A stretch of DNA of 34,983 nt from an uncultured Acidimicrobiales bacterium. Its GTDB lineage: Bacteria > Actinomycetota > Acidimicrobiia > Acidimicrobiales > UBA10347. The translations under genes and the position numbers were made by a program. The notes under the pieces were generated by a model that had not been told where the DNA came from, searched no databases, and saw nothing but the letters and a program-made list of their open reading frames with translations. This document shows, piece by piece, positions 997-20,986 of the stretch; positions within the stretch are counted from its first letter, which is position 1, and every line of letters begins with the position of its first letter. The DNA is taken from NCBI GenBank assembly GCA_937941245.1, contig CALDYC010000133.1, positions 1 to 34,983 of the forward strand. The letters run 5' to 3'.

Positions 997-1062
997 GCGG
1001 CAAGGCTAAGCACGCCCAACCCAGATTTCCGAGTCACCCACGCAAATTAGGTTCTTAGCCCG

Positions 1063-1106
1063 CCGCTGGGAAGCCCGTCAGCGGTGCCGAAACCTCAGCG
1101 GGTTTC
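1063..1106 (-). terminator. Possible stem-loops downstream of nhaA
   Basis: Two short inverted repeats lie between nhaA and topA. One has a 6-bp stem (1089-1094 with 1101-1106) overlapping the nhaA stop codon; the other has a 6-7-bp stem (1063-1068 with 1079-1084). Neither is followed by a T-run on the minus strand, so intrinsic termination is not well supported. The rest of the 108-bp gap shows nothing. Confidence 0.25.
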
Positions 1107-2544
1107 AGTCATCATCGTCGTCATCGCCGTCGGCTCCGCTGAGAATGAGCAGACCACCAATCGAGGCAATGATCGACGCAAACAAGATGCCGATCTTGGC
1201 ATTGTCTTCGATCGGGCCGCCCCCGCTGCCGTCGGTTTCAGCGGCAGCGACACCGTCGGCTGAAAGGTCCACGACGAGCGCTTGCTCGTCGTCGCCCGAG
1301 TGATCGTCGGCGTAGTCGTCGGCGCTAAAGGCCAGGTTGCTAACAAACAGCGACACGGTGAAACCAATACCGGAAATCATCGCTAGACCGACCAAGCGAC
1401 GAAGGCTCATCGCCGATGGCATCTTGGCAAGCTTGAGACGTGCCGCTACCAGACTGAACACGGTCACGCCAACGGTCTTACCGACCACCAGGCCAACCAT
1501 GATTCCCCACGTGACCGGCGACTTGAGCGCCGCCGAAATGATGTCGCCGTTCATGCGCACACCCGCGTTCGCAAGTGCGAACAGCGGTATCACCGCAAAG
1601 CTGGTGATCGGGTGCAGCGCGGTCTCGAGCCGCTCGGCGACCGAGACCGATTCACGAATGCGGAAGCTTGCATACCGAACGTCGATCGGGAAGACCTCGG
1701 GCTTGTCACGAAGCCAGCGGGCAATAGTACGAGTGTCATCTTCAGACTGCAGTGGCCTGGCTGGGGTGATCAAGCCGAGGATCACGCCCGCGATCGTTGC
1801 GTGCACACCCGAGCGATAAGTCGTCCACCAGATCACTGCACCGATGAGCACATAGATCGGGATGTACCAGACCCGAAGCTGCTTGAGCAGCAGCACGAGC
1901 GCAATCAGGATCGCTGTGGCAGCCATCCAGCCGAAGCTGATTCCGGACGAATAGAAAAGTGCGATCACGATGATCGCGCCGATGTCATCGACGATCGCCA
2001 GCGACAACAAGAAGATCTTGAGCCGGCGCGGAATGCGATCACCGAGTAGCGACACGATGCCGACCGCAAACGCGATATCGGTTGCCATTGGTATGCCCCA
2101 GCCGCTTTGACCAGGTCCACCAGCGTTGAACACGAGGTACAGCGCAGCCGGCACGACCATTCCGCCGATTGCGGCAAACGCTGGCAGAGCGGCATCTCGA
2201 GGGTTGCGCAGCTGCCCGTCAACAAGCTCGCGCTTGATCTCGAGTCCCACGACAAAGAAGAACAGGGCCATGAGCGCGTCGTTGACAAAGTCAGCGAGAG
2301 AATGCCCGCCAAAAATTTCGATGTCGCCGACGAAAAGATTGACCGAGGTATTCCAGAAGTCGTCGTAGCTGTCGCCCCATGGCGAGTTGACCCAGATCAG
2401 CGCGGCTGCGGTCGCGATGAGCAGCAAAACGCCGCCAGCAGCCTCGACCGCGAGGAAGCGTTTGAACGGCCGGGCGAACCAGCGCGCGATTCTGCTTTCA
2501 CGACCAATGAATGTCAGGTCGCCGAAGTTTGTTTGCTGAGCCAT
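1105..2544 (-). CDS. nhaA: Na+/H+ antiporter NhaA with acidic C-terminal extension
   Basis: Inner-membrane electrogenic antiporter exporting Na+ in exchange for protons. The 479-residue product carries family hallmarks: MALFFFVVGLEIKRE (92-106), the unwound-helix motif PMATDIAFAVG with Asp156, and LAIVDDIGAIIVIALFY with the Asp186-Asp187 pair equivalent to the E. coli Asp163/Asp164 ion site. It is longer than the typical roughly 390 residues. The excess includes a hydrophilic Asp-rich insert between the last two membrane segments (around residues 408-450) and a terminal GADGDDDDDD tail after the final helix. The ATG at 2544 has no obvious Shine-Dalgarno. An inverted repeat lies 15 nt upstream. 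It is transcribed alone, away from the rsb pair. Confidence 0.96.
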   Translation of the reverse strand: MAQQTNFGDLTFIGRESRIARWFARPFKRFLAVEAAGGVLLLIATAAALIWVNSPWGDSYDDFWNTSVNLFVGDIEIFGGHSLADFVNDALMALFFFVVGLEIKRELVDGQLRNPRDAALPAFAAIGGMVVPAALYLVFNAGGPGQSGWGIPMATDIAFAVGIVSLLGDRIPRRLKIFLLSLAIVDDIGAIIVIALFYSSGISFGWMAATAILIALVLLLKQLRVWYIPIYVLIGAVIWWTTYRSGVHATIAGVILGLITPARPLQSEDDTRTIARWLRDKPEVFPIDVRYASFRIRESVSVAERLETALHPITSFAVIPLFALANAGVRMNGDIISAALKSPVTWGIMVGLVVGKTVGVTVFSLVAARLKLAKMPSAMSLRRLVGLAMISGIGFTVSLFVSNLAFSADDYADDHSGDDEQALVVDLSADGVAAAETDGSGGGPIEDNAKIGILFASIIASIGGLLILSGADGDDDDDD

Positions 2545-17406: not shown

Positions 17407-18021
17407 TCATGGCCGTTCGCCGAACTCGGGGCCGACCGTGCGGGTGCGCTTGATCTCCCAGAAGCCGGGCGTCGAAGCACACGCGATGAACCCGTCCCAA
17501 AGTTTGAGGGACTGCGCAGGTGTGGGCACCGCCGAAATGACCGGTCCGAATAACGCGACCCGGTCACCGTTGTCATCATCGAGCGCAACGATTGGTGTGC
17601 CGACATCGTCTCCGGTGAGGGCAAGACCAACCTGCATGCGGGTCGCGATCTCGGCGTCAATCGTGTCGTCGGCCGCAGCGGTTGCAAACCCCCGGTCGAG
17701 CCCGACGGCTTCAAGCGCATCGGCTGGGTCAAAGGAACGGTCCTTGTCGTGGTGGATTCGGCGACCGAACTCCCAATAGAGGGCCTCGATCGCCTCGTCG
17801 CCTTCAGAAGCTCGAACAGCTTCGATCACTCGAAGCAGACCGTGCGTGAACGATGCAACCTTTTCGTAGTCGCTGCCAAATTCGGGATCGTTCTTGAGCA
17901 GCAAGCTGATTGGTTGCCACGTGATCGACAGATCACGATGCGGACGTACCTCATCGACCACCCAACGGGCGGTCACCCAACACCACGGTCAAAGCGGGTC
18001 AACCCAGAACTCGATCTCCAT
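17407..18021 (-). CDS. Predicted selenoprotein: Rv2466c-like DsbA-family reductase with UPWC active site
   Basis: Reading from ATG 18019-18021 (Shine-Dalgarno AAGG 7 nt upstream) gives MEIEFWVDPL, then in-frame TGA at 17989-17991, then PWCWVTARWVVDEV and an open frame to 17407. With the TGA read as selenocysteine the protein is 204 residues with U11-P-W-C14, matching the CPWC site and about 207-residue length of Mycobacterium Rv2466c, a mycothiol-dependent nitroreductase. The C-terminal marks DVGTPIVAL, ALFGPVISAVP and FWEIKRTRT also fit that family. A SECIS-like hairpin follows the TGA. Calling it from the GTG at 17976 would remove the active site. Alternatives are a nonsense mutation or base-call error, made less likely by the neighbouring UGA gene and the hairpin. 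Confidence 0.85.
17956..17974 (-). promoter_or_regulatory. Predicted bacterial SECIS stem-loop in the UPWC gene
   Basis: On the transcript, GACCGCCC (17974-17967) pairs with GGGTGGTC (17963-17956), 8 bp with one G-U, around the loop GTT (17966-17964). Twenty-two nucleotides separate the UGA from the loop, and the first loop base is G. Both fit the usual bacterial SECIS rules (loop about 16-37 nt downstream, G among the first loop bases), where SelB binds. Confidence 0.7.
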
Positions 18022-18077
18022 CCACCCACCTTAAGGCCCCCAGCACGAGCGACACCGGGCAGGGTGTGATCTGAGAT

Positions 18078-18377
18078 TCAGATCTCGCATGCGCCGCCGG
18101 TGCCGTCGTCGAAGTCGACCGTCAGCCGTTTGCGAATCGATCCGCTCACGTCGACCCGCATGGATTGCGCCATTCCGACAAGTTTCGGAGACATGAGAAT
18201 GCGGAAGTCCTCATGACGTACCCGGCGATACGGGGCGAGGTTCTTACCTTTGACATTGGTGTCGACCGACACCTCAGCGACTTTGCCTCAACCAACCGGT
18301 TTGATGAAGTCGATCGCCATGGTTCCGCCTCGTTTGGCAAGCAGGCGTTCGGCCTCGGATGTGATCTCAATTTTCAT
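18078..18377 (-). CDS. Predicted selenoprotein: HesB-like CC/Se-motif family protein
   Basis: Small protein of 99 residues if one in-frame TGA (18288-18290, codon 30) is read as selenocysteine. The start ATG 18375-18377 follows a GAGG Shine-Dalgarno. The N-terminus MKIEITSEAERLLAKRGG and IDFIKPVG precede U30; after it come KVAEVSVDTNV, KNLAPYRRV and FRILMSPKL. This matches the pattern of the IscA/HesB-like CC/Se-motif (seleno)protein family as I remember it, where Sec or Cys sits in a Gly-rich motif after GGxxxID; the second Cys of that motif is Gly here. The protein ends GGACEI. Function of the family is not established. The gene is 56 bp upstream of the UPWC gene, same strand. Confidence 0.82.
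18258..18273 (-). promoter_or_regulatory. Predicted bacterial SECIS stem-loop in the HesB-like gene
   Basis: GGTGTC (18273-18268) pairs perfectly with GACACC (18263-18258) around the tetraloop GGTC (18267-18264). The loop begins 21 nt after the UGA and starts with GG, close to the geometry of the second UGA gene downstream and consistent with a SelB-binding element. Confidence 0.68.
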
Positions 18378-18383
18378 GACCAA

Positions 18384-18451
18384 CCTCGTTCATTGACAAA
18401 CCCCGTTCATTGACAAGCCTCGTTCATTGACAAGCCCCGTTCATTCACAAA
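18384..18451. repeat. Four 17-bp tandem repeats upstream of the HesB-like gene
   Basis: Four head-to-tail 17-bp units of the form CCYCGTTCATTGACAAR occupy 18384-18400, 18401-18417, 18418-18434 and 18435-18451; the last has C for G in TTGAC. On the minus strand each carries TTGTCAATGAACG(A/G)GG, and the copy nearest the gene supplies its GAGG Shine-Dalgarno. There are no spacers, so this is not a CRISPR. It could be a multi-copy protein-binding site, a set of translation-start-like modules, or slippage. Confidence 0.9.
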
Positions 18452-18496
18452 CATCATGTTTGACGAAACTCGATCATCGGCACCTTGGCCCAATAC

Positions 18497-18542: not shown

Positions 18543-19943
18543 TTAGTCAAGCAGATGAAGCACGGCTTCGACCGCGGCCGATCGACCCTGGTCAATACAC
18601 GCCGGAATACCGATGCCCCGATACGACATGCCGGTGAGGAATATGCCGTCGGGGTTGAGGTCCCCTTCGGCTTGAGCGACACGATCCAGGTGGCCCGGCA
18701 CATACTGCGGAAACGCATCGGGCCAACGCGAGATGCGCGTTGCGACGGGTTCGGCTTCGATCCCGGCGGCAGTCCGCAGATCAGATCGCACGACATCGAG
18801 CAGTTCGGCATCGTCGAGTTCGGGAGTGACCTGATCACCTGCGTGGCCAACAGAAATACGGAGCACCACGTTGCCGTCGACCCCTCGGAGATGGGGCCAC
18901 TTCGATGAGGAATACGAACAGGCCGTGATCGTGAGCTCGCCGCCGCGAGGCACCAGGAAACCGCTGAGCGATGCATCGGGCGAGAAGGCGTCACCATCGA
19001 ACACCAACGTGATGAGCGCAACCGAAACCATCGGCACCGAAGCAAGCCGCTCGGCAGCATCGGGCCAAGCCCAAACCAGCCGAGCTGCGACATCGGCCGG
19101 GCATGCGAGCACGACCGCATCGGCGTGATAGGTCGTGCCGTGCGCGGTATCAAGTCGCAACCGGTCACCGTCGTGGGTCACACCTGTCACCGTTACTGCA
19201 GTCGTGATGTGGTCAGCGAGGCGGAGTTTCAGCTCGTCGATCATGATGCCCACACCGCCCTCGAACGAGTGAAACACCGGCGCATCGGACCGACGCTGTG
19301 CAGCCATGTTCTGCAGGGCCCGAACCAGGCTCGGGTCGGACTGTGCGGCCGCGAGAATTTGTGGCGATGACGCGTGCACTGACAGTTCGTCGGTATCGCC
19401 AGCATTGATCGCCCCGAGTAACGGATCGACAAGAGCGGTGTGGATTCGATCACCGAGACGGCGCCGAACAAGCGAGCCAATCGTGTCATCATCACGTACC
19501 GGGTCAGGTGCCGTTCGGGCTAGGTCGAGCTCTACGCGATCTCGCGCCTCGGCACCCAACAGTGCCTCGACCGCGTCGGGAGCGAGCGGGATGCCGAGCA
19601 CGTTCGGTTGCGGCAGGGCCATGAGCGAATCGCCTGTCCAGATCTCTGCGTGACGAGCTGCGGGCGAGATCAACAGGTGGGACAAGCCAAGTTCTTCGGC
19701 AAGGCGAATGCCATGCGGGACTCGAGCGAGGAACGCGTCTGCAGCCTCGTCAACCAGCCGACCACCAATCTCGGTGGCGCCGATCTTGCCGCCAACGTCT
19801 GGCTCCTGCTCGAGAAGCTGGACCGGAACGCCGTCGTTGTGCAGCTGCCATGCAGCGGCAAGTCCGCTGATTCCGCCGCCGACGACGATCACGCTTCCGA
19901 CATCGGCGCGATCTATCGCGGCCCTGCGGCTCGCTGCGGTCAC
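18543..19943 (-). CDS. hemY: Coproporphyrinogen/protoporphyrinogen oxidase HemY
   Basis: FAD enzyme of 466 residues that oxidises the porphyrinogen ring in haem synthesis; in actinobacteria this homologue normally acts as coproporphyrinogen III oxidase (CgoX). The dinucleotide fold is IVVGGGISGLAAAWQL near residues 18-33 with the LLEQEPDVGGKIG continuation, and the C-terminal flavin segment is GMSYRGIGIPACIDQG. The GTG start overlaps the hemE stop by 4 bp (GTGA), so translation is coupled. No hemQ follows; instead two UGA-containing genes lie downstream on the same strand. Confidence 0.95.
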   Translation of the reverse strand: MTAASRRAAIDRADVGSVIVVGGGISGLAAAWQLHNDGVPVQLLEQEPDVGGKIGATEIGGRLVDEAADAFLARVPHGIRLAEELGLSHLLISPAARHAEIWTGDSLMALPQPNVLGIPLAPDAVEALLGAEARDRVELDLARTAPDPVRDDDTIGSLVRRRLGDRIHTALVDPLLGAINAGDTDELSVHASSPQILAAAQSDPSLVRALQNMAAQRRSDAPVFHSFEGGVGIMIDELKLRLADHITTAVTVTGVTHDGDRLRLDTAHGTTYHADAVVLACPADVAARLVWAWPDAAERLASVPMVSVALITLVFDGDAFSPDASLSGFLVPRGGELTITACSYSSSKWPHLRGVDGNVVLRISVGHAGDQVTPELDDAELLDVVRSDLRTAAGIEAEPVATRISRWPDAFPQYVPGHLDRVAQAEGDLNPDGIFLTGMSYRGIGIPACIDQGRSAAVEAVLHLLD

Positions 19944-20986
19944 TGGCCGCCGAGGTGCGCTTCGGCGTGGACCAACTCAACGACTCGTTCAAGGATTGCG
20001 GGGTCAGTTTCGGGGAGCACGCCGTGGCCAAGATTGAAGATCCAACCGGGTTCGCCGGCGTTCTGGGCGATCACTCGCCGCACCGCGTCGGCGACCGCTG
20101 GCCACTGCGCCAGGCACAGCACCGGGTCGAGGTTGCCCTGAATGATCGAGTCAGGTCCGAGTCGTTGCCGCGCTACATCGAGCGGCACGAGCCAATCAAC
20201 GCCCACGACATCAGCTCCGGCCGCACGCATGAGCGCCAGCAGTTCGCCGGTGTTGATGCCGAAGTGAATGCGTGGCACCCCAAGTGGAGCGACCGCTTCG
20301 AAGATCTTTTGGCTAGCCGGAAGCACGTAACGCTCATACATGTCAGGCGAGAGGCACCCGGCCCAACTGTCGAATACCTGCACTGCCGAAGCGCCATTGG
20401 CAACTTGCGAGGTCAGCGAAACGATCGCCATGTCCGCCAGGCGGTCGAGAATCGACGTGAACAGCTCCGGAGCGTCGAGCATCATCGACTTGGTTCGGGC
20501 CTTGTTCTTGGACGGGCCGCCCTCGATGAGATAGCTCGCGACAGTGAATGGAGCCCCCGCGAATCCGATCAGCGGGATGTCGTGTTCGGCCACCAGGTTC
20601 CGGATCGTTTCGAGCACATACGGCGTGTCAGCCTCGGGGTCGAGCGGACGCAGCCGCCGCAGATCATCAGCACTCGTAATGGGTTTCTCAGCTACGGGAC
20701 CGACACCAGGCTTGATGTCAATGCCAAATCCAATGGCATGCACAGGGGTCACAATGTCGCTGAACAAAATCGCCGCATCGACGCCATAGCGACGCACTGG
20801 TTGAAGCGTGATCTCGGTCGCGAGATCGGGGTTTGCGATCGCCGTGTTGATCGACCCGTCGCCACGGACCGCTCGATATTCGGGCAGCGATCGGCCTGCC
20901 TGGCGCATGAACCAGACAGGCACACGTTCGGTGGGCTCGCGGCGACAGGTCGCCAAGAACGCTGAGGACTGCGGATCAAACGGCAT
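19940..20986 (-). CDS. hemE: Uroporphyrinogen decarboxylase
   Basis: Cytosolic enzyme of 348 residues that removes four carboxyl groups from uroporphyrinogen III to give coproporphyrinogen III. The signatures are VWFMRQAGRSLPEYRAVRGD (positions about 24-43), AAILFSDIVTP and IGFAGAPFTVASYLIEG, with VFDSWAGCLSP in the middle. ATG 20986 lies 8 nt after TACCGT (20995-21000), which may be a -10 for a nearly leaderless transcript, although the HAD gene ends only 23 bp upstream and could be cotranscribed. hemY follows with a 4-bp overlap. Confidence 0.97.
   Translation of the reverse strand: MPFDPQSSAFLATCRREPTERVPVWFMRQAGRSLPEYRAVRGDGSINTAIANPDLATEITLQPVRRYGVDAAILFSDIVTPVHAIGFGIDIKPGVGPVAEKPITSADDLRRLRPLDPEADTPYVLETIRNLVAEHDIPLIGFAGAPFTVASYLIEGGPSKNKARTKSMMLDAPELFTSILDRLADMAIVSLTSQVANGASAVQVFDSWAGCLSPDMYERYVLPASQKIFEAVAPLGVPRIHFGINTGELLALMRAAGADVVGVDWLVPLDVARQRLGPDSIIQGNLDPVLCLAQWPAVADAVRRVIAQNAGEPGWIFNLGHGVLPETDPAILERVVELVHAEAHLGGQ

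Follow-up and report, generated by a model that had tools for sequence, protein, structure and literature searches.

A predicted selenocysteine-containing Rv2466c-like reductase conserved in Acidimicrobiales and a neighbouring gene with a second in-frame UGA

The closest described relatives of the gene reported here are Rv2466c, NCgl2478 and NCgl2339, DsbA-like mycoredoxins of Mycobacterium tuberculosis and Corynebacterium glutamicum that belong to the Pfam family PF22234. In NCgl2478, the first cysteine of the active site is a nucleophile of low pKa and the second is the resolving one; reduction of mixed disulfides with mycothiol follows a monothiol route, and the electrons are supplied by mycothiol, mycothione reductase and NADPH (PMC8280269). 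A second group of interest is that of the predicted “DsbA-like” selenoproteins (PF01323), for which a 2026 review distinguishes form 1, UxxC, and form 2, DxxUP, and names NIP15863.1 and MDP6049977.1 as representative records (PMC13188914). The GOS study had already listed the predicted selenoproteins DsbA 1, 2 and 3 (PMC2398784), and DsbA-like selenoproteins with UxxC are thus a predicted class on record (PMC2398784, PMC1088965, PMC13188914). Operons with several selenoprotein genes have been reviewed as well, namely grdA-grdB, Prx/SelW-like, Tso and SAO (PMC13188914).

Here, we describe a probable selenocysteine (Sec) form of the Rv2466c-like reductases, found in a window of 34,983 nucleotides (the whole stretch of DNA that was analysed) from an uncultured Acidimicrobiales bacterium. 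The gene occupies positions 17407..18021 of the reverse strand and would encode 204 residues, followed by a TGA stop, with a UPWC active site. Its ATG lies at 18021, 3' of a Shine-Dalgarno-like AAGGTGGG read from the sequence at 18024..18031 (reverse strand), and is followed by the remainder of ten codons (MEIEFWVDPL), an in-frame TGA at 17989..17991 (reverse strand), PWCW and a frame that stays open to the TGA at 17407-17409. A preliminary description of this locus had reported the ATG, the Shine-Dalgarno sequence, the ten codons, the TGA, PWCW and the open frame, and every detail was found again on re-reading. With the TGA taken as a residue (residue 11), the protein matches the entire PF22234 profile (E 2.5e-42; 145.5 bits against a cut-off of 27) and the solved Rv2466c structures (E about 1e-37), which agrees with the family proposed in that description. 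The suggestion that the TGA falls exactly on the first Cys of CPWC, that is, on the nucleophilic position, also holds, since it is aligned with Cys19 in the C-P-W-C site of Rv2466c. PF01323 is matched too (1.1e-7), and none of the NCBIfam models matches the protein. Gene calling with table 11 yields an ORF of 189 amino acids from the GTG at 17976, so that the active site is lost, as had been foreseen for standard gene calling. With its active site cut off and its product unrecognized by NCBIfam models, the gene is probably annotated wrongly in public genomes.

Early in-frame stops are the usual sign of a truncated pseudogene or a nonsense mutation, and a single draft metagenome assembly could turn TGC or TGT into TGA through a sequencing or assembly error. 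The distribution of the codon speaks against both explanations. In a sample of 248 Acidimicrobiales genomes (hereafter the order sample), an orthologue with one in-frame TGA was present in 48, and among the distinct main-group orthologues whose loci were read, including public assemblies of other projects, the TGA was at the identical codon in 54 out of 54. Public assemblies made independently by different projects (L050-L054, L056) have the same TGA, as do a further 47 genomes of the order sample. Moreover, the frame is intact and the UGA orthologues are 53-72% identical to the reductase over some 200 residues. With one fixed TGA codon in 54 orthologues, independent assemblies and an intact frame, we regard chance, error and pseudogene formation as ruled out for all practical purposes.

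The alignment of homologues, proposed in the preliminary description, has either Cys or the putative Sec at the UGA position, eight close Cys orthologues having TGC or TGT at that codon. The 47 aligned members, UGA and Cys forms together, share 22 invariant columns, a degree of constraint that also argues against a pseudogene. Residues F5, W6, D8 and P9, encoded before the UGA, are conserved as the first strand of the family. The second, resolving Cys is retained in every main-group UGA orthologue, Pro143 of the Thr-Pro site is invariant in the alignment, and His90, which is aligned with position 99 of Rv2466c, is nearly so.

The genome that carries the reductase also has two paralogues of the Cys type (L094 and L116). 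Among more distant matches, raw UGA counts overstated the presence of Sec, since the terminal stop had been included in the query as a residue: L086, L088-L095 and L105-L124 have plain Cys when read. All of the Rv2466c-type loci read from outside Acidimicrobiales have Cys at the nucleophile position. Two genomes of the same genus, G106 and G138, have a second predicted Sec copy of the reductase (L060 and L081, respectively), with UPFC instead of UPWC.

A putative bacterial SECIS hairpin lies at 17955..17975 (reverse strand), 22 nt after the UGA, with a 9-bp stem (UGACCGCCC/GGGUGGUCG) and an apical GUU. Bacterial SECIS elements are described as having a loop of 3-9 nt with a G in its first two positions, a stem of 4-16 bp, a distance of 16-37 nt from the UGA and, as a further criterion, an MFE at or below -7.5 (PMC13188914). 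The hairpin of the reductase falls within these limits (loop GUU, 22 nt, 9 bp, -14.7 kcal/mol). A common stem of 6-9 bp, with an apical GUU or GGU and placed 21-22 nt downstream of the UGA, is found in the 54 UGA copies, of which 52 agree with all four criteria and two miss the energy limit only (-6.8 and -5.6).

The stem appears to be constrained independently of the protein. The third bases of Thr17 and Val21, both of them protein-neutral, are paired in 54 of the 54 UGA copies by six types of pair (GC 43, UA 4, AU 3, CG 2, UG 1, GU 1), with about eight changes on the tree. Covariation in the hairpin exceeded that of all 500 shuffles and of every slid register, and third-base entropy at fourfold sites was 0.77 bits in the stem versus 1.62 in the rest of the gene. 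When the covariation was put to a sign test over independent pairs from the tree, p was 0.25, with just four pairs and hence low power.

In Cys homologues the hairpin is absent, with the sole exception of L063 (genome G134, about 1001-1627, reverse strand), a Cys (TGC) orthologue with CPFC that has a perfect SECIS hairpin at -15.9 kcal/mol. Since this hairpin was kept intact and L063 groups with UPFC relatives, it is likely a recent reversion from Sec to Cys with a relic hairpin. The table-11 ORF mentioned above might also be taken at face value, with translation restarting at GTG 17976, the UGA acting as a real stop and the product being a short protein devoid of the active site. The first strand, which is encoded ahead of the UGA, is conserved, though, and the hairpin is confined to UGA copies and one relic, which makes such a restart very improbable.

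The genome of the reductase contains the genes needed for decoding UGA as Sec. The preliminary description had named selA, selB, selC (tRNA-Sec) and selD as the genes to look for, and all of them were found: a tRNA-Sec with anticodon TCA (68.6 bits), adjacent selA and selB genes, both over the curated cut-offs, and a selD over its cut-off that itself has an in-frame TGA at the known Sec position (HGAG-U-GCK). In the order sample, selA occurs in all 48 UGA genomes versus 148 of the 248 genomes as a whole (hypergeometric 4e-13, not corrected for kinship); owing to the relatedness of the genomes, this value points to a strong association but does not give an exact probability.

A genome-wide reassignment of UGA to Trp, Gly or Cys, as known in some bacteria, would also make the codon readable. 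Nevertheless, both UGA genes of this locus end at UGA, and selA, selB, the MshC-like gene and the mycothione reductase gene can each be read from end to end without an internal UGA. Additionally, the non-UGA homologues have Cys at the position, and Sec genes and a SECIS hairpin are present, so that we find recoding hardly credible.

Considering that the same codon is UGA across many species, that the hairpin is constrained and covarying and that the set of Sec genes is complete, the UGA at 17989-17991 is almost certainly read as selenocysteine. With a probability that we put at about 0.93, the product of the gene is a selenoprotein and a DsbA-fold reductase of the Rv2466c family that carries Sec in place of the attacking Cys of C-P-W-C.

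Sec and Cys have been exchanged several times in this family. On a maximum-likelihood tree of 93 proteins we counted six Sec/Cys changes (bootstrap range 5-7), versus 29 with shuffled labels. The tree has one large Sec group, with a few Cys members inside, and two distant Sec members in other Rv2466c subfamilies. These two, L087 (G239; UPWT) and L096 (G093; UPFA), are without the resolving Cys; both come from selA-positive genomes and can form a hairpin downstream of the UGA (-11.1 and -6.2 kcal/mol, respectively). They probably represent independent gains of Sec.

The AlphaFold2 model of the reductase (pLDDT 96.8) places Sec11 just before the first helix. In Foldseek searches, the ten best PDB matches were all Rv2466c or its M. 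leprae homologue, and model and matches together indicate a thioredoxin fold with a helical insert like that of Rv2466c. The C-P-W/F-C site of PF22234 appears as U-P-W-C, the predicted Sec replacing the first Cys.

The link to mycothiol, which the preliminary description had also proposed, is supported indirectly. In its favour, a mycothione reductase is encoded in the genome (NF005884 score 630 bits, cut-off 501) along with MshA-like and MshC-like genes, and mycothione reductase co-occurs with the UGA form. On the other side, TIGR03452 scores below its curated cut-off in this genome (575 of 636 bits), the mycothiol models are the best ones for the MshA-like and MshC-like genes but stay under their cut-offs (373 of 462 and 418 of 485 bits), and MshD was not identified in this assembly, which is 71.5% complete.

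Matches to TIGR03447 and TIGR03452 occur in every one of the 248 genomes of the order sample, for the most part because the models pick up CysS and other flavoprotein reductases. Our count of mycothione reductase therefore comprises homologues scoring over 480 bits, together with three genes that an insert divides within one frame. Counted in this way, it is present in 45 of the 48 UGA genomes (in three as two pieces of one frame), in 40 of the 100 other selA-positive genomes and in 9 of the 100 selA-negative ones, figures that are not corrected for relatedness. The UGA genomes with no strong match are G165 (60% complete), G138 (a contig-end fragment only) and G222 (93% complete).

These data leave room for a selenoprotein whose donor and substrates are not linked to mycothiol, such as a general Sec disulfide reductase or a peroxide-handling enzyme that takes its electrons from thioredoxin or some other thiol. 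Thioredoxin or glutathione does serve other Sec redoxins with this fold, the msh matches are below their cut-offs with MshD not found, and three UGA genomes are without a strong mycothione reductase match. Against this stand the strong co-occurrence of the UGA form with mycothione reductase and the fact that sequence and fold place the protein with the mycothiol-dependent Rv2466c and not with FrnE or DsbA. We therefore judge a thiol partner other than mycothiol to be unlikely, even if it is the alternative with the most weight.

By analogy with the chemistry of NCgl2478, and given the mycothione reductase in the genome and its co-occurrence with the UGA form, Sec11 is likely the attacking group of a mycothiol-coupled reductase. 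This claim is weaker than the reading of the UGA as Sec, which is much firmer: with the msh matches below cut-off and MshD not found, mycothiol dependence could be wrong even if Sec is right.

If both are correct, the following cycle can be proposed. From the sequence evidence, Sec-tRNA would be made from tRNA-Sec(UCA) by SelA with the selenophosphate of SelD, and SelB would bring it to the UGA through the hairpin. As in the Cys relatives Rv2466c and NCgl2478, the Sec11 selenolate would then attack S-mycothiolated or disulfide substrates, the resulting selenenylsulfide would be resolved by Cys14, and the enzyme would be regenerated with mycothiol, mycothione reductase and NADPH.

A second probable selenoprotein gene, P0002 (18078..18377, reverse strand; 99 residues), lies 56 nt upstream of the reductase gene on the same strand; the preliminary description of the reductase does not mention it. 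Its in-frame UGA (18288..18290, reverse strand) corresponds to residue 30 (...IKPVG-U-GKVAEV...), is conserved in the order and is followed by a putative SECIS hairpin of its own, GGUGUC-GGUC-GACACC (18258..18273, reverse strand), in which two homologues have G-C instead of a U-A pair, a compensatory change. Each of the 34 P0002 matches of the order that extend over the site has a single in-frame TGA, its position having been read in 20, and the sole match with no TGA starts after the UGA residue. No Cys form of P0002 was seen among the matches in the order, and selA is present in 34 of the 35 genomes with a match.

Of the loci read, only those of five members of the genus (L020, L021, L023, L025 and L075) have P0002 paired with the reductase. 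It is probable that the two genes form a two-selenoprotein operon conserved in the genus. P0002 would probably be co-transcribed with the reductase and may serve the same redox process.

Four near-copies of an 18-base unit, TTGTCAATGAACGRGGY, are found at about 18380-18455 (reverse strand) and end just before the start codon of P0002. These units contain a repeated Shine-Dalgarno-like GAACGAGG and may be regulatory or the product of a local duplication. Further upstream of both UGA genes, on the same strand (18543-20986), are genes for a flavin amine oxidoreductase (protoporphyrinogen-oxidase-like) and a uroporphyrinogen decarboxylase.

Literature searches combining selenoprotein with Rv2466c retrieved no paper describing an Rv2466c-type selenoprotein, and searches combining selenoprotein with Acidimicrobi retrieved nothing relevant. 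We lean, with some reserve, towards regarding these proteins as the first selenoenzymes of a mycothiol system: an order-wide clade of Sec DsbA-like mycoredoxins in which Sec and Cys were exchanged repeatedly, some forms (UPWT and UPFA) being devoid of the resolving Cys, and with an operon, within one genus, that includes a second selenoprotein family seen only with UGA. The enzyme is widespread in Acidimicrobiales, in a probable Sec family that standard gene finding cuts short. A Sec mycoredoxin would connect selenium with mycothiol, two areas of redox biology that tend to be considered separately. With one enzyme occurring naturally in Sec and Cys versions, it becomes possible to ask what selenium contributes to a thiol-disulfide reductase, and the several exchanges, together with a Cys gene with a relic hairpin, offer material for studying how Sec is gained and lost.

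Compared with the multi-selenoprotein operons reviewed so far, P0002 and the reductase gene are likewise UGA genes that lie side by side on one strand and have a hairpin apiece, but the review describes no operon that combines these two families (PMC13188914). P0002 itself resembles NF041239, the “CC/Se motif family (seleno)protein”, distantly over its length (E 1.8e-6; 27.9 bits against a cut-off of 40), although it is without the CxxU motif listed for that family.

The reductase shares with the predicted DsbA-like selenoproteins, a published class that the preliminary description does not mention, the DSBA superfamily and Sec at the attacking Cys, and its DPLUPWC holds both UxxC and DxxUP, whereas we found no mention of mycothiol in the accounts of that class (PMC13188914, PMC2398784). 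Since the reductase matches PF01323 and fits both motifs, some of the listed DsbA-like selenoproteins may belong to the Rv2466c type, in a comparison made by motif and PF01323 match alone.

The classical DsbA oxidase is further away, with C-P-H-C where the reductase has U-P-W-C, and ranks far below Rv2466c in the structural matches. The likeness is closest to Rv2466c, NCgl2478 and NCgl2339 (34-37% identity; TM about 0.83); with Rv2466c the reductase has in common the position of the C-P-W-C site, the resolving Cys, Pro143 and the histidine at Rv2466c position 99. What sets it apart from Rv2466c and the other DsbA-like mycoredoxins is a nucleophile predicted to be Sec, encoded by UGA with a SECIS hairpin and confined, in our samples, to Acidimicrobiales.
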